64,000 bases of DNA from Pectobacterium punjabense (GTDB lineage Bacteria; Pseudomonadota; Gammaproteobacteria; Enterobacterales; Enterobacteriaceae). The stretch is from the NCBI RefSeq assembly GCF_012427845.1, contig NZ_CP038498.1:2666001-2730000 (forward strand). Direction: 5' to 3'. A program made the translations under genes and the position numbers. A model generated the notes under the pieces. It did no database searches. It was given only the letters and a program-made list of their open reading frames with translations, and was not told the DNA's origin. Shown piece after piece: positions 23,085 to 29,275 of the stretch; positions within the stretch are counted from its first letter, which is position 1, and every line of letters begins with the position of its first letter.

Positions 23085-23172
23085 ACCCGGAATAAGCGCT
23101 TCTGTCACAGTATGCAGTGGTTTTATCGCTTTTGATAAACCCCGCAGAGGTCATGAGAAACGCCCAACGACT

Positions 23173-24057
23173 TCAGGGTTCATGTAAACTGCCCATTCTT
23201 TCATAGCGTTTTTTATATTCCGCCGGTGGAATTCCATTATGTTTGCGAAATAAGCGTGTGAAATAGACCGGATCGCTGTACCCCACTGACTGTGCGACTT
23301 TAAATATGGGCAGTGGCGTCGACTGAATCAAGAGCTTGGCACAATTGATGCGCTGAACTTCGCGCCAGGCATAAATAGTTTGCCCCAATTCAATTTTGAA
23401 CAGATGCGCCAGCCGCGAAGGAGACAGAAACACCATCCCCGCCAGCGCTTCAATTCTCAGCTCTTCAGCAATATGTTCGTTTAAATAGGTGCACACCGTA
23501 TTTATCCTTGGATCGTGCGCATACCGGCTGCTAATAGGCTGTAGCTGAAAACAGGCGAGGATCAACCGCTCCAGCGCATTCATCGCCAACGCTTCTGACA
23601 GCGGCGTTGAATCGGCATTATGGCGGATCGCCTCATAGAACAGTGCTTGTATATGCTGGCTCATTGCAGGGGCATGGATGATGGTTTTCCCAATGCCCTG
23701 CGTTTTGTCATCCCATTTTAACCAGTCATGCCAGTAAGGTCGGGGAATAAAATAAATCCATACATGATCCCAGTGGTCGCTGTGTTTATCACGGCCATAA
23801 TGGTGTGGCACGCCCGGCGGAAAAAGTAATAATTCATTCTCCTTGGACAATAACGATCCTTCCCCTACTTTGGCACATCCCTGTCCGCGCAGCGTCAGGT
23901 TAATAATATACCCCTTCATTCCCTGTGGCCGGTTAATATAATAATCCAGTACCGAACCACGAGATATTGGAGTAAAACCAGCGACCATCCAGGCATTAAA
24001 GGTAAAGGTTTTCATCAACGGGGAAAAGTTCAATAATTCATTGATATTGAGTTCCAT
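23173..24057 (-). CDS. AraC-like arabinose-type regulator
   Basis: A 294-residue regulator closely resembling E. coli AraC across both domains. The N-terminal cupin keeps residues equivalent to the arabinose pocket of AraC: Pro13 (P8), Thr29 (T24), Arg43 (R38), Tyr87 (Y82), His98 (H93) and Trp100 (W95). Conserved text includes NRPQGMKGYIINLTLRGQG and LLLFPPGVPHHYGRD. The C-terminal part has two helix-turn-helix units (IEALAGMVFLSPSRLAHLFKIELG and KVAQSVGYSDPVYFTRLFRKHNGIPPAEY). It is the last gene of a minus-strand operon, 32 bp behind a GH42 beta-galactosidase. I infer a paralogue or reassigned AraC that senses arabinose or a similar sugar and activates the permease/GH42 operon. It may be the only AraC in this genome; this window cannot tell. 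Confidence 0.9.
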   Translation of the reverse strand: MELNINELLNFSPLMKTFTFNAWMVAGFTPISRGSVLDYYINRPQGMKGYIINLTLRGQGCAKVGEGSLLSKENELLLFPPGVPHHYGRDKHSDHWDHVWIYFIPRPYWHDWLKWDDKTQGIGKTIIHAPAMSQHIQALFYEAIRHNADSTPLSEALAMNALERLILACFQLQPISSRYAHDPRINTVCTYLNEHIAEELRIEALAGMVFLSPSRLAHLFKIELGQTIYAWREVQRINCAKLLIQSTPLPIFKVAQSVGYSDPVYFTRLFRKHNGIPPAEYKKRYERMGSLHEP

Positions 24058-24089
24058 ATTAACCTCTCGATATGGCCGCTGGCATAGGC

Positions 24090-26099
24090 TTAGCTTTCGA
24101 TAATAATAAAATCCCAGGCGTTGAGCAGTAACGATGAGCCTTCTACAACCTCAGTGTCAGTTAATAAAGCGTAACCACCCATTTCACAATGATAAGATTG
24201 GGGTTTCCCTGAGTAGTTAAATACAAAAGAAATTGACTTGCCGTGAGCATTTTTCATTCGTTTCACAATAAGCGGAAATGCATAGCGTGATGTGCGCGAA
24301 CGAAGCGATATGCCTCGCGTCAGATGATCAAATAACTGGCAAATAAGGAAAGGTTGCGGCAGAAACCCTACATACATTGCCCGTCCATCGCCATAATTCG
24401 CCTCGGTTGCGGCAACGTAATCACACCAGGCCGGATGCTGATAACGCAACAAGGTGCGGGTTTCTGGTAACGGTGTCAGTAACTCCATCCATAAATCAGC
24501 CCGATTATCACGGCTGCAATCAAGATCCGGCAGGCAGGCAGCAACGGTGACCGCATCCGGCAACGTAAACTGGCTATAGCTCACGCCACAAACACGGCTG
24601 AGCAAACCAGGTTGAGTACTGTGTCGAACTTTTACATTTTCGTCACTGAACCCTGATTTGAAGCCAATCAGCGCACGGCCACCTCGTTCAATATAACCAT
24701 TAATCCTTTCCAACAGCCCATTATCAGCAGCATAGAGCGCCGGAATAATCACAGCCTTATAGCGCGCCGTGCTTTCATCCACATCGTTAATAATGTCGAG
24801 AGAAATATTGTGATCGTACAGCGCATCATAAAACCGACGAATAATATCGTTATAAACGTTAGTTTTTGCGTCGCCAGGTTTGAATTGGTTCAGGGCATCC
24901 ATCGCTTCATTGCTGATCAATAACGCCACATCACAATCTGCCCGTAATGATTCAAGAGACGAAGACAGCCGGGAAAAATCAGCCCCAATCGTTGTGGCTT
25001 CTTGCCAGGTAGGATTGCGAGAGAAATCATGGCTCAGCAGCCCTTTCCAGTAGGTTTCAAACGAATTATGGATGGAATGCCAGTGCCAGTACGCCACCAT
25101 CGCCGCCCCCGAGGCGATGTGGCTAAAGGCTTGTAGCCGTAATTGCCCCGGATAAGGTGTCCACTGCGGAAACCCTTGTGCCTGCGTTTCGAGGACAAAA
25201 TAATTTCGCCCCTGTTTCAGATTTCGCGTAACGTCACCACCGAAGGCAATTTCTCTCCCGGTTAAATATGACTGGCTCGGGTGATAAATATCGACACCTG
25301 CCACACTCAGACATTTCGCTGCCGCAAAATGATCGACGTGAGGCTGTACGCCAAATGAATAACCGCGCCATTCAAAATCAAAATTGTGCGTAATGAAATG
25401 ATGCGGTTGTGCATATTCCCGCACCAGACTGGCCTGCCAGGCCAAATAATCCGTCACTTGCTGCCGCTGATAGCGGCTGAAAGCACAAGAGAGGCTGGCA
25501 TTAATGGTGTTCTCGACGGGGGGGAAATCTTCCCAGCGATCGATACGGTTACTCCAATAATCGAGGCCGAAATCATGATTAAGCTTATCGAGGCTCACAT
25601 ATTTTTCGCGCAAATGCTGAACAAAACCGTCCTGCATGTCGCGTCCAATATTATCGTAATGCTTAGTTTCATTATCTAATTGGTATCCGATGATCGCAGG
25701 ATGATGTTGTACATGCTCCAGCAACACACGGATGATATTCTCTGCATAACGGCGAAACACAGGGCTAACAATATCCATGATTTGCCGGGGTCCGTATTTT
25801 TGCTGTCCTTCTACCGTCGTCACCATGACTTCGGGGTGCTTGAGAGCAAGCCACGACGGAATCGCATAGGTTGGCGTGCCGATAATGACAGCGATCCCTG
25901 CACGATGCATCGCATCCAAAACGCGATCGATGTGATAAAAATTATACTCACCTTCTGTCGGCTCTAACGTGCTCCATGTCGATTCCGCAATGCGTACAAC
26001 ATTGATCCCCGTTTCCAGCATGAGTGAAATATCTTTTTCCAGACGATCTTCCGGCATATACTCATCGTAATAAGCAACACCATAATATAATTTTGACAT
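24090..26099 (-). CDS. GH42 beta-galactosidase
   Basis: A 669-residue family 42 glycoside hydrolase. The N-terminus YYGVAYYDEYMPEDRLEKDISLMLETGINVVRIAESTW is the family start. The acid/base is Glu144 in QLDNET and the nucleophile is Glu304 in FVLETQ. A trimerisation domain (about residues 380-590) and a small C-terminal beta domain follow. No signal peptide is present, so it cleaves imported short galacto-oligosaccharides, or related beta-galactosides or alpha-L-arabinopyranosides, in the cytoplasm. It lies 17 bp behind a LacY-like permease and 32 bp before an AraC-like regulator, so the three form one operon. In soft-rot bacteria such a unit would suit fragments of pectic galactan or arabinogalactan. 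Confidence 0.92.
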   Translation of the reverse strand: MSKLYYGVAYYDEYMPEDRLEKDISLMLETGINVVRIAESTWSTLEPTEGEYNFYHIDRVLDAMHRAGIAVIIGTPTYAIPSWLALKHPEVMVTTVEGQQKYGPRQIMDIVSPVFRRYAENIIRVLLEHVQHHPAIIGYQLDNETKHYDNIGRDMQDGFVQHLREKYVSLDKLNHDFGLDYWSNRIDRWEDFPPVENTINASLSCAFSRYQRQQVTDYLAWQASLVREYAQPHHFITHNFDFEWRGYSFGVQPHVDHFAAAKCLSVAGVDIYHPSQSYLTGREIAFGGDVTRNLKQGRNYFVLETQAQGFPQWTPYPGQLRLQAFSHIASGAAMVAYWHWHSIHNSFETYWKGLLSHDFSRNPTWQEATTIGADFSRLSSSLESLRADCDVALLISNEAMDALNQFKPGDAKTNVYNDIIRRFYDALYDHNISLDIINDVDESTARYKAVIIPALYAADNGLLERINGYIERGGRALIGFKSGFSDENVKVRHSTQPGLLSRVCGVSYSQFTLPDAVTVAACLPDLDCSRDNRADLWMELLTPLPETRTLLRYQHPAWCDYVAATEANYGDGRAMYVGFLPQPFLICQLFDHLTRGISLRSRTSRYAFPLIVKRMKNAHGKSISFVFNYSGKPQSYHCEMGGYALLTDTEVVEGSSLLLNAWDFIIIES

Positions 26100-26116
26100 A
26101 CTCCTTCCTCCTTAAA

Positions 26117-27349
26117 TTAATAAACTAACCCAGGCTTATGGGCAAACACTCTATTTTTATCCAGTGTGAAGAATGAAATAACGGTGAAGCACAAGGCGAC
26201 ACTTCCCAGTATCAGGTAGCTACTGGAAAATCCCATTTTCTGATACAAGTGGCCAATCCCGGTGGATAGAAAAATCGAGCTGAAACTTTTAGAGAATTGG
26301 AATCCAATAAGGTAGACCGTAGCGGAAAGCAGCGGATTGAAATTCGCAGTGATGTATTTTAATGCCGCAACCAGCAGCACTGAACTTTCGAACCCATGGA
26401 GTAATTTAATTAAACTAATGGATACTGGCCCAACGGCCCATGCGGAACCTATAATGCGAAAACTCATAATAAGCCCACAGTAGAGTAACGCATTTTTTGG
26501 CCCAATCTTATTCACAAACCACGGGGCGAAGAACATTACCACGGCATCCAGGAAAATCTGCCCGGTGGTTAAATAACCAAAAACTTCCGCACCACGCGCT
26601 TTGTTTTCAAAAAAGTGGGTGTAATAAATCGCAAACTGCTGGTCATAAGTTTCATAAACAGCGCCTACACCTATCATATAGATGGCAAAGAACCAGAATT
26701 GTTTTAGTTTTAGCAGTGCGGCTGCATCATTGAGTGTAACAGGCGGTTGAGTACGCATTTGCTGTGAATACTGATTCGAGGAACTGACCTGCGTTTTCCA
26801 TACAACAAACAATAAGCACACGCCCGCTGCGCTAGCCGTCCAAAAGATCAAGTTCTGATCGATGCCATAAAGTTTCCCTGCAATAAAGGTTCCTAATGCT
26901 GCACCAATACCGCCAAACATTCTCGCACGGCCGAATTCAAAACCCGATGCCCGGCTGACTTTATCAATATACGCCTCACAAATTCCGCAGCCTGCGCCGT
27001 AAGCCATACCGATATATATCCCGCCCGCAAACGCACCGAGAATAACGTTAAATTTCAATAGCGGGGCAAAGACGAATATCCAATAAGGTGCGAAAAATGT
27101 AATGATAAGCGCCAGCATCCACATAAGATGCTTACGATAAATAAGTTTGTCAGAAATAAAACCAAATAATGGCTGAACACATACCGCCACAACGGCAGTA
27201 AAGGAATACACCAGCCCAACATCTCCATAGCTAATGCCAATGGTCTCCGTTAGCCATAATGATAAATAAGGGAAACAGCACCCCCAACCGATGAAGAAAA
27301 AAAGGAAAAACAAACAGCTCATGTAATAATTTTTATTTGAATCTATCAT
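26117..27349 (-). CDS. LacY-like oligosaccharide:H+ symporter
   Basis: A 410-residue MFS carrier of the LacY family with twelve membrane segments. Key LacY residues have equivalents: Glu125 (E126), Arg143 (R144, in FEFGRARMFG), Glu233 (D237), Asp236 (D240), Arg298 (R302), His318 (H322) and Glu321 (E325). The equivalent of LacY Glu269, a sugar and coupling residue, aligns with Ile265 in GYLTTGQIFLDAV, with Gln next to it, so sugar recognition probably differs from lactose. It is the first gene of the operon that continues with the GH42 enzyme and the AraC-like regulator. The start is ATG 27349 (MIDSNKNYYM), with CGAGGG a few bases upstream. The likely cargo is a galactoside or arabinogalactan fragment. 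Confidence 0.9.
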   Translation of the reverse strand: MIDSNKNYYMSCLFFLFFFIGWGCCFPYLSLWLTETIGISYGDVGLVYSFTAVVAVCVQPLFGFISDKLIYRKHLMWMLALIITFFAPYWIFVFAPLLKFNVILGAFAGGIYIGMAYGAGCGICEAYIDKVSRASGFEFGRARMFGGIGAALGTFIAGKLYGIDQNLIFWTASAAGVCLLFVVWKTQVSSSNQYSQQMRTQPPVTLNDAAALLKLKQFWFFAIYMIGVGAVYETYDQQFAIYYTHFFENKARGAEVFGYLTTGQIFLDAVVMFFAPWFVNKIGPKNALLYCGLIMSFRIIGSAWAVGPVSISLIKLLHGFESSVLLVAALKYITANFNPLLSATVYLIGFQFSKSFSSIFLSTGIGHLYQKMGFSSSYLILGSVALCFTVISFFTLDKNRVFAHKPGLVY

Positions 27350-27425
27350 GATACCCTCGCGTTCTCATTACCGGAAATATGCCCGTATTGATGCGAGCAA
27401 CGTTACCCTGTAATAGAAAGCGCAG

Positions 27426-27463
27426 TCATGAATGTCTCGCTAGCGACCAGTAATAATCTGCTA
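27426..27463 (-). promoter_or_regulatory. Tandem AraC-type half-sites upstream of permease
   Basis: On the minus strand, TAGCAGATTATTACTGG (27463-27447) and TAGCGAGACATTCATGA (27442-27426) are direct repeats whose TAGC cores are exactly 21 bp apart. That is the spacing of I1 and I2 at E. coli araBAD. The downstream half-site ends with TTCATGA, similar to the AraC TCCATA end. They lie 77-114 bases before the permease start. Confidence 0.68.
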
Positions 27464-27475
27464 TGCCCTGCGCGG

Positions 27476-27491
27476 CGTGAGAGTGCTCACA
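27476..27491 (-). promoter_or_regulatory. CRP-binding site upstream of permease/GH42 operon
   Basis: CGTGA-GAGTGC-TCACA matches the TGTGA-N6-TCACA consensus at nine of ten positions. Its centre is about 28 bp upstream of the first AraC-type half-site, close to the CRP-I1 distance at E. coli pBAD. Confidence 0.72.
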
Positions 27492-27640
27492 TTTTATTAC
27501 TGTCTGCCGGAAGAATAAAAAAATGTTTATTTTAAAATAGGAGAACACCCCGCAAGCATTATGCTGGCAGGGTAAGAATATCCTTTCATTATTTAAAACG
27601 CCGGGATATTTCCAAACGATGATCCCGACAGCACGATGGT

Positions 27641-28336
27641 TTACTGTCCGTAATAGGCGTTCTTACCGTGCTTACGTAAGTAGTGCTTATCCAACAGCGT
27701 TTGCTGCATCTCACTCAACTGAGGCGTTAGCTGGCGTGAGAAAATCCCCATGTAGGCAAGCTCTTCCAGAACCACGGCATTGTGCACCGCGTTATCAGCA
27801 TCTTTCCCCCATGCAAAGGGGCCATGCGAATTTACCAATACCGCGGGGACATCCACCGGAGAAATGCCGCGCTGGCGGAAAGTTTCGACGATCACCGTTC
27901 CCGTATCCCACTCATAGCGACCATTGATTTCTTCATCCGTCATCAAACGAGTACAGGGAATGGGACCATAAAAGTAGTCAGCGTGCGTGGTTCCCCAGGC
28001 GGGGATGTCTTTACCGGCTTGCGCCCAGATCGTGGCATGCCGAGAATGGGTATGCACAATACCGCCGATATCGGCAAACTCCAGATACAGCACGCAGTGG
28101 GTATCGGTATCTGACGATGGCTTCTTCGTCCCCTCCACTACCTTGCCGCTTTCCAGTTCGACAACGACCATGTCCTCTTGCGTCATAGCCGAGTACTCAA
28201 CGCCGGAGGGTTTGATCACCATCAGACCGCGCTGCCGATCTACCGCACTGACATTTCCCCAGGTAAACGTCACCAAATTATGCTGCGGCAAGGCCAAATT
28301 GGCTTCCAACACCTGTCTTTTTAGCGTTTCTAACAT
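27641..28336 (-). CDS. araD: L-ribulose-5-phosphate 4-epimerase
   Basis: A 231-residue class II aldolase-fold epimerase, the same length as E. coli AraD, which converts L-ribulose-5-P to D-xylulose-5-P. Diagnostic text: [12 protein letters not shown] near residue 20, [22 protein letters not shown], the Zn-binding [15 protein letters not shown] and the C-terminal [14 protein letters not shown]. It has no araA or araB beside it, unlike E. coli. It has its own upstream region with AraC-type half-sites, and the permease operon upstream region follows 291 bp beyond its stop. It therefore looks like a separately transcribed part of an arabinose regulon, with the rest elsewhere. Confidence 0.95.
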
Positions 28337-28672
28337 AATCAGCCTCCCATCGACGCGATAACACCATTCTCCCGGCCTGACGAATTCGTCGCTATGGGCT
28401 AAATCGCTAAAGACCTAGCGGTGTTCTGCTATGGGAAAAAGAAAGAGACACGCCACAATATTGAGCAAAAAACAGCCAGCTTTATCAATTATTGCTATCG
28501 TTAAGGTAACGCAGGGGAATTAGGAGTTTTTACCTGTTGCCGTTTTTTCCGATGATTATACTTGTCATTAGGCGGTAAAAGGCTCCATTCCTTTATTTAA
28601 TACCGCAAAAAGAACTTTGTTCGATATTTTCCTCACAAGAAACGTGAGACTAAGAGCAGAAAGGGGAAGAAA
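28337..28672. other. Divergent araD/osmB intergenic region
   Basis: This 336-bp region holds the promoters of araD (minus) and osmB (plus). Apart from the AraC-type half-sites at 28393-28431 I see no clear operator. The osmB-proximal 170 bases should hold its stress-responsive promoter, but a consensus for RcsB or sigma S could not be fixed by eye. Confidence 0.5.
28393..28431 (-). promoter_or_regulatory. AraC-type half-sites upstream of araD
   Basis: On the minus strand, TAGCAGAACACCGCTAG (28431-28415) and TAGCGATTTAGCCCATA (28409-28393) repeat in the same direction with TAGC cores 22 bp apart. The second differs from the AraC consensus TAGC-N7-TCCATA at one position only (CCCATA). They lie 57-95 bases before the araD start. 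A poor CRP-like sequence (TGTGG-N6) lies upstream. Confidence 0.58.
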
Positions 28673-28888
28673 ATGAAATTAAATAAACGTTTTGCGACAG
28701 CCGCTCTGGCAATTACGCTTGCTGTTACGCTCGCGGGCTGTTCAAACATGTCCAAACGTGACCGTAATACCGCGATTGGTGCCGGTGCCGGTGCGGTAGG
28801 TGGAGCGATCTTAACGGATGGCGGAACATTAGGAACACTAGGCGGTGCCGCTATCGGCGGGCTGATTGGCCGTCAGGTCGATAAATAA
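28673..28888 (+). CDS. osmB: Osmotically inducible lipoprotein OsmB
   Basis: A 71-residue lipoprotein almost colinear with E. coli OsmB (72). The signal peptide has the lipobox LAGC, with lipidated Cys at residue 23. The mature part has SKRDRNTAIGAGAGAVGGAILTDGGTLGTLGGAAIGGLIGRQV, a glycine-zipper segment. AAAGGGGAAGAAA precedes the ATG. It is monocistronic, divergent from araD, and ends in a strong hairpin. In E. coli it is induced by osmotic stress and stationary phase. Confidence 0.96.
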   Translation: MKLNKRFATAALAITLAVTLAGCSNMSKRDRNTAIGAGAGAVGGAILTDGGTLGTLGGAAIGGLIGRQVDK

Positions 28889-28897
28889 CCTATTTAT

Positions 28898-28933
28898 AGC
28901 AGCAGGTTAACGGGAGTAAACCTGCTGCTTTTA
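28898..28933 (+). terminator. Rho-independent terminator between osmB and yciH
   Basis: AGCAGCAGGTT (28898-28908) and AACCTGCTGCT (28919-28929) pair perfectly over 11 bp, followed by TTTAT. The genes converge here, and the hairpin could serve both, with osmB the better match. Confidence 0.88.
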
Positions 28934-28945
28934 TACTCGTCATAC

Positions 28946-29275
28946 TTATCCGCCGGCCAGCTTGACCTTCATCCCTTTCGCTTCCAGAAGCTGTTTTAGC
29001 AGGTCGCGTTTATCTCCCTGAATTTCGATCACGCCCTCTTTCGCTGAGCCACCGCAGCCACATTTTTTCTTCAATTCAGCAGCCAGCTTATCCAGCTCAG
29101 CATCATCAAGATCGAGGCCGCTAATCAGGCATACACCTTTTCCTTTACGCCCACTGGTTTGGCGTTGGATACGCACGATACCATCACCTTTTGGCCGAAC
29201 TTCCTTTTCTTCTTCAGGCTTAATACGCCCCGTTTCCGTGGAATAAACCAGTTGGCTGTTCTTATCATGATTCAT
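28946..29275 (-). CDS. yciH: YciH, SUI1/eIF1-like translation factor
   Basis: A 109-residue SUI1-domain protein, similar in length to E. coli YciH (108). The motif [23 protein letters not shown]... [22 protein letters not shown] is the eIF1-like fold. The start ATG 29275 overlaps the pyrF stop (ATGA), so the two are coupled; a longer reading into pyrF is spurious. E. coli YciH affects initiation codon and tRNA discrimination and expression during stress. It keeps the pyrF-yciH order seen in E. coli. Confidence 0.95.

Follow-up and report, generated by a model that had tools for sequence, protein, structure and literature searches.

A GH42 operon of Pectobacterium punjabense as a putative arabinopyranoside cassette under pBAD-like, AraC-type control

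Which sugar is handled by a LacY-like permease and a GH42 enzyme, and which signal switches them on, is the question raised by a three-gene operon in a 64,000-nucleotide stretch of Pectobacterium punjabense DNA, hereafter the window (NZ_CP038498.1, positions 2,666,001 to 2,730,000; G000:C1:2666001-2730000, in a genome of one contig of 4.79 Mb). According to the list of open reading frames (ORFs), Pfam, and NCBIfam, the operon occupies the minus strand (27349-23173) and runs from a LacY-family permease through a GH42 enzyme to an AraC-type regulator, with intergenic gaps of 17 bp (permease-GH42) and 32 bp (GH42-AraC). A sequence-only reading had placed an AraC-type, not a LacI-type, regulator after the two sugar genes, on which the ORFs and the family searches agree, and had proposed galactoside uptake and cleavage induced by an arabinose-type sugar. 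The sequence observation was confirmed and AraC-type control from a conserved promoter was supported in this work, whereas the galactoside function was not. The cassette probably imports and cuts arabinose-capped plant sugars, and its switch appears to be a second copy of the E. coli arabinose system with a partly changed DNA target.

The enzyme (24090..26099, minus strand) was assigned to GH42 by Pfam, and NCBIfam gave no family. By comparing it with solved structures, a score of 677 bits was obtained to 5xb7 and at most 191 bits to the other 15 sequences listed. In the covered parts of the source, 5XB7 is BlArap42B, an alpha-L-arabinopyranosidase whose Trp358 occupies the space where a His of beta-galactosidases binds the C6-OH (PMC8106489). 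W351 of the present enzyme aligns with this Trp358, so the Trp that replaces the C6-OH-binding His in GH42 alpha-L-arabinopyranosidases is present. Trp was found at this position in 79 of 80 aligned sequences (the enzyme itself, 78 of the 80 scan loci, and the other GH42 of the genome), and the one departure is the GH42 of the genome's gan-type cluster, which has His; His also stands there in the four beta-galactosidases compared, as read by eye. The catalytic residues E144 and E304 are Glu in 80/80. Because the enzyme is closest to BlArap42B and carries W351 where galactosidases have His, it is probably not mainly a beta-galactosidase, and it is quite likely to be an arabinopyranosidase, predicted to be cytoplasmic, more than a galactosidase. 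BlArap42B is bifidobacterial, whereas the enzyme here is enterobacterial and its activity is predicted from sequence. The gan-type cluster, so named by eye, contains ABC (ATP-binding cassette) transporter parts and a GH42 with the usual His, which is 26% identical to the window's GH42 (L026 19-6562 = G000:C1:3328018-3334561).

The permease (26117..27349, minus strand) is a member of the LacY (oligosaccharide:H+ symporter) family, with 450 bits to Pfam LacY_symp, 490.5 bits to the NCBIfam galactoside permease subfamily PRK09528 (cut-off 429), and 43% identity to E. coli LacY. It retains E126, R144, R302, K319, H322, and E325; in LacY the last four of these have a proton role. The galactoside contacts of LacY were reported as Glu269, Trp151, Glu126, Arg144, Asn272, and His322 (PMC7205474 and PMC6156506 together, in the parts covered). 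LacY has W151, E269, N272, and N119, whereas in 22/22 aligned orthologues of the cassette permease these positions are Ala, Ile, Asp, and Gly, respectively, so that the galactoside-binding W, E, and N are all replaced. LacY itself (L175, annotated lacY) and a raf-type permease (L174) keep W, E, and N, and a csc-type permease (L177) combines W151 with Q268, V269, and E272. With Q268, a hydrophobic residue at 269, and an acidic one at 272, the cassette permease is closer to the csc-type than to LacY or the raf-type, the labels raf and csc being assigned from neighbouring genes. Judged from these residues, the permease is of the LacY family, but its sugar site is not that of LacY.

These two proteins bear on the proposal of the sequence-only reading, a true beta-galactoside operon that arabinose would cross-induce because it signals the presence of arabinogalactan or branched pectin. 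The GH42 and LacY families are known mostly for galactosides, which speaks for it, but the substitution of Trp for the C6-OH-binding His, the arabinopyranosidase as the nearest solved enzyme, the loss of W151/E269/N272 from the permease, and the gan-type GH42 with His that the genome already holds make it unlikely. The strain BL21(DE3) carries its own lacZ. Expressed in this strain, BgaA of Ewingella americana was termed a lactose-hydrolysing enzyme in a paper published in 2026; washed inclusion bodies hydrolysed o-nitrophenyl galactoside (o-NPG) with an apparent Km of ~17 mM, and the specific activity is given as 0.0005 U/mg at one point and 4.0 U/mg at another (PMC12842569, in the parts covered). 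The rafB-bgaA locus is apparently of the same kind, with a transporter, a 2007-bp GH42 gene with Trp351, and an AraC-type regulator nearby, and AraC control of the GH42 module was suggested there. It was read there as encoding a lactose-hydrolysing beta-galactosidase, and an operator analysis, a comparison with arabinopyranosidases, and an arabinopyranoside substrate for BgaA were not seen in the parts of that paper covered. The high Km of BgaA fits a poor substrate; the weak o-NPG hydrolysis is still positive evidence of some galactosidase activity, favours the galactoside proposal, and counts against strict specificity for arabinopyranosides. GH42 enzymes with both activities were also published (PMC10673005, in the parts covered), which weighs in the same direction. 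The structure model of the enzyme (mean predicted local distance difference test score, pLDDT, of 74) neither supports nor opposes the argument from W351, because the pLDDT is <50 at residues 335-358.

If neither the enzyme nor the permease is of the galactoside type, induction by arabinose would be ordinary product induction without a cross-signal, and the question turns to the promoter. The sequence-only reading had described a CRP-like site followed by two TAGC direct repeats exactly 21 bp apart, which was confirmed on the minus strand. The CRP-like site TGTGAGCACTCTCACG (27476..27491) has 9/10 consensus letters. By sequence comparison, an I1-like AraC half-site TAGCAGATTATTACTGG with the A-box TAGC and the B-box TACTGG follows at 27447..27463, and an I2-like half-site TAGCGAGACATTCATGA lies 21 bp downstream of I1 at 27426..27442. 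The minus-strand starts (27491 for the CRP-like site, 27463 and 27442 for the two TAGC) are thus spaced by 28 and 21 bp. In E. coli pBAD (L110), the starts of the 16-base CRP box, I1, and I2 are 29 and 21 bp apart, so the claim of the same relative distances as in araBAD is exact for I1-I2 and off by one base for CRP-I1. The I2-like site overlaps the presumed -35, a weak hexamer ATGACT (27424..27429) placed by analogy with pBAD, and the presumed -10 TAACGT (27400..27405) stands as far from I2 as TACTGT does in the E. coli promoter; the ATGACT/TAACGT pair was absent from the output of the sigma-70 scan. A CRP site and two direct-repeat half-sites 21 bp apart with I2 at the -35, as in a pBAD-type promoter, are present, given this placement of the -35.

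Could such repeats be coincidental and the promoter not of AraC type? Among 20000 dinucleotide shuffles of the own 320-bp upstream region, the bare TAGC-21-TAGC pair arose in 109, which lends coincidence what support it has, but none of these had a CRP match of at least 8/10 at 28/29 bp; the looser YAGC pair arose in 304 shuffles, one of them with a CRP match. By these counts the pair combined with the CRP site is rare, the pair by itself not particularly so. Conservation was counted in 25 upstream regions, comprising the own one, those of 21 named loci from the genome scan (L030-L050), and those of three same-genus loci (L168, L169, and L171). All 25 keep the YAGC-21-YAGC pair and a CRP match (8-10 of 10), which lies 28 bp upstream in 15 and 29 bp upstream in 10. 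Furthermore, the pair and the CRP match were found in 7/7 further regions (L019-L023, L025, and L178), two of which duplicate the DNA of L039 and L050, giving the layout in 30/30 distinct promoters of the LacY-type operon; these promoters are not independent, since several come from close relatives, and L171 and L025 are from decayed copies. Of 4732 control windows (320 bp each, taken from 57 other loci), none showed the layout. By eye, a comparable conserved block was not seen upstream of the CRP site in seven aligned regions, which again argues against coincidence. Chance repeats were rejected on the shuffles and the control windows set against the 30 promoters, and a coincidental origin is hardly credible. 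The half-sites, whose lack of conservation ahead of orthologous operons had been named as evidence against AraC-type control, are thus kept throughout. The observation of the repeats and the CRP site is real and stronger than the sequence-only reading could tell, and we are highly confident that the operon is under AraC-type control.

The regulator itself (23173..24057, minus strand), the last gene of the operon and here called AraC2, scored 411.6 bits with the NCBIfam AraC model PRK10572 (cut-off 208), which makes it an AraC protein by that model. The genome was to be checked for a separate araC, and one is present at G000:C1:2382325-2383149 together with araFGH and araBA, so AraC2 as the sole AraC of the genome was ruled out. 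AraC2 is 44% identical to this canonical AraC, and in a tree of 36 rows the AraC2 proteins (27) and the canonical ones (9) are split with a support of 100/100. We take the arabinose pocket of AraC to consist of P8, T24, R38, Y82, H93, W95, and six neighbours. All 12 positions are the same in the own AraC2 and E. coli AraC, in an N-terminal domain with only 70/165 identical residues, and a single departure, H80Q in L033, was found among the 22 LacY-type AraC2 rows. L-arabinose is therefore the likely ligand of AraC2 by this comparison, and the product of the enzyme and the inducer plausibly coincide. A ligand other than free L-arabinose, e.g., the arabinopyranosyl disaccharide after its import or a sugar resembling galactose, would be in keeping with the changed N-terminal arm (PLMKTF instead of the PLLPGY of E. 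coli) and with the notion that a paralogue beside a canonical AraC would profit most from a new ligand; against the pocket, unchanged in the own AraC2 and in 20/21 other LacY-type rows, we regard it as a poor prospect. In Klebsiella sp. BIGb0407 (L033 8821-9780), a second AraC-like gene directly follows AraC2; its product is 54% identical to the own canonical AraC and has the first helix-turn-helix (HTH1) helix SASHLSH instead of SPSRLSH.

A further possibility is that the canonical AraC of the host mainly controls the operon and AraC2 is redundant. A canonical-type AraC match occurs in 8/8 genomes searched (with internal stops in G153 and G028), the TAGC A-box is common to both systems, and an AraC operator was predicted ahead of araD in Pectobacterium versatile (PMC7843439, in the parts covered). 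However, a match to AraC2 of at least 279 aa was found in 21/21 named LacY-type loci, and the B-box of I1 mostly departs from the CAT type. I1 starts as YAGCARRTT in 25/25 promoters. Among 21 promoters compared, four (L047-L050) have the B-box TTCATA or TTCATG, three (L044-L046) have TCTATG, a further three (L041-L043) have TACAGG or TACAGT, and the own promoter is one of 11 with TACTGG, TACTGC, TACTGT, or TACTAC; the B-box of E. coli is TCCATA. At the position of E. coli Gln258, which belongs to the second helix-turn-helix (HTH2), the four AraC2 proteins whose promoters have TTCAT(A/G), and no others, carry Gln; the remaining 17 have Pro or Ala, so the non-CAT B-box in 17/21 promoters goes in step with the loss of Gln258. 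This covariation is a correlation that stems from essentially one event in the tree. On the other hand, canonical I1-type sites, which were selected by a score with a bias to TAGC/TCCATA, vary too, being TCCATA in E. coli, L131, L133, and L134 and ACCAAT ahead of the own araBA. With a matrix built from the cassette I1 sites, these same sites scored 16.1-26.9, the canonical sites 6.9 (E. coli I1), 1.0 (own araBA), and -4.0 (own araD), and the cassette I2 sites -10.3 to 8.0, as low as the canonical ones, which again leaves room for the canonical regulator. Taken together, main control by the canonical AraC appears improbable.

The preferred reading of AraC2 as the regulator of its own operon leads to a more far-reaching and tentative proposal, which we hold to be possible and rather doubtful at present. 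The cassette might be a mobile, self-contained arabinopyranoside module in which a second natural AraC keeps the same inducer but has a re-specified half-site, with Gln258 lost and the I1 B-box changed from the TTCATA/TCCATA type to the TACTGG type. Two pBAD systems would then coexist in a cell while using largely separate operators, and the module might do with activation alone, lacking the O2 repression loop. The orthogonality of AraC2 with respect to canonical operators is a proposal from these sequence comparisons. In the own genome, the 27-base site was matched once with up to 3 mismatches, i.e., there are no other genomic AraC2 sites by that criterion. Within the own 23086-29000, there was one strong I1-type site of 25.8 bits, and the next one of 7.1 bits fell within the maxima of 20 shuffles (3.3-8.8). 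A strong second (O2-like) I1-type site was thus not seen in that region, in a scan that a weak O2 would escape, as E. coli I1 and I2 score just 6.9 and 2.4. Weak sites near lacY +212 were present in L030, L032, L033, L041, L043, and L047 of 13 loci scanned and absent in the own. The system resembles E. coli araC/pBAD in an AraC homologue with an unchanged pocket, CRP, I1/I2 direct repeats 21 bp apart, and I2 at the presumed -35. It differs in the altered HTH2 helix, the I1 B-box, the CRP-I1 spacing, and the gene order, since araC is divergent in E. coli whereas AraC2 is co-directional and last here; a strong loop site was not seen within the reach of the scan.

We hypothesize, with somewhat more than even confidence, that the operon is a cassette for the use of small alpha-L-arabinopyranosides and regulates itself. 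The LacY-family proton symporter with its non-galactoside site would import these sugars, and the cytoplasmic GH42 alpha-L-arabinopyranosidase would free L-arabinose from them. The L-arabinose would bind AraC2; occupying I1/I2 beside RNA polymerase and downstream of CRP, AraC2 would then raise the transcription of all three genes including its own (positive feedback), and the released arabinose would enter the AraA-AraB-AraD pathway of the host. The hypothesis is built on what was observed, namely the order and families of the genes, the diagnostic residues, the promoter layout and its conservation, and two empty sites. Besides the galactosidase activity discussed above, several points weigh against it. 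The inducer, the substrate, activation, and binding of AraC2 to I1/I2 are inferred from sequence; the tree program flags long branches; and, with an I1 B-box and an HTH2 unlike those of E. coli, the AraC binding rules are not simply transferable. In the literature searched, nothing was found that reads the operon as one for arabinopyranosides or that describes its conserved pBAD layout, the changed sugar site of the permease, its behaviour as a cassette, or the shift of the half-site. If the hypothesis holds, a likely misannotation as beta-galactosidase and galactoside permease would be corrected in a number of enterobacteria, and a pathway would be assigned for alpha-L-arabinopyranosyl plant glycosides. 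Moreover, the naturally occurring pairs of AraC and operator, with a shifted DNA target at a constant ligand pocket, would offer a direct test of half-site reading by HTH2, and the cassette may provide another arabinose promoter that shows little cross-talk with pBAD.

The AraC2 operon is a small, patchily inherited enterobacterial gene set. At E <=1e-100, a GH42 of this type was found in 8/198 family genomes, broken in G028 and without LacY and AraC2 in G114, and in 5/25 genus genomes, broken in G216 and MFS-type (major facilitator superfamily) in G200. The cassette lies between araD and cstA in G000, G211, and G216 and elsewhere in G198 and G200. By genome comparison, DNA matching the whole cassette (23086..27637 of the window) is absent from the fetched stretches of the same-genus genomes G151 and G219, in which cstA and araD are adjacent, and a GH42 match was not found in either at 1e-100. 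The GC content of the cassette is 0.46 compared with 0.513 for the window. The patchy presence, the two empty sites, the varied positions, the araD-less flanks, and the low GC point to horizontal gain of the cassette with its own promoter and regulator, whereas loss at the araD site in relatives may be an alternative. In G216, the same-genus copy beside araD has fragmented matches to all three genes (L171 5313-9480). In G114 (L024 7384-9462), the GH42 of the same type (53%) is near a cluster that by eye is like a beta-glucoside phosphotransferase system (PTS).

A sister type (L051, L052, and L170) has the order GH42, AraC, MFS transporter and lacks LacY. The 21-bp pair was found upstream of 0/3 of these loci, and a repeat at ~22 bp was noted by eye. 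The sister-type AraC (L051 2592-3455, L052 8058-8915, and L170 9018-9872) starts at MCFTFDAYLVAG without the N-terminal arm, and in L170 a stop codon directly precedes its ATG. The loss of the arm would be expected to alter the arabinose switch.

The operon is flanked upstream by the host gene araD (L-ribulose-5-phosphate 4-epimerase; 27641..28336, minus strand; ORF, NCBIfam, and genome comparison) and downstream by a convergent cstA-like gene. The genome has araBA, araFGH, araC, and araD. The araBA/araFGHC locus lacks araD; the window's araD was found in 25/25 same-genus genomes, whether or not they carry the cassette, and would thus give released arabinose a metabolic route. Since araD is present throughout these genomes, was found in the fetched flanks of 0/23 named AraC2 loci (L030-L052), and is kept at both empty sites, it was ruled out as a member of the cassette. 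A second araD-like epimerase, 80% identical to the window's AraD, lies with a 3-dehydro-L-gulonate dehydrogenase in L126 1122-7746. Upstream of araD, the window contains TAGC words at 28393-28431, including TAGCGATTTAGCCCATA, which is consistent with the AraC operator predicted for P. versatile. Furthermore, the 19-base PhoP operator listed for araBA/araFGH of P. versatile in the covered parts of that source (PMC7843439) is letter-identical in the own araBA-araFGH gap.

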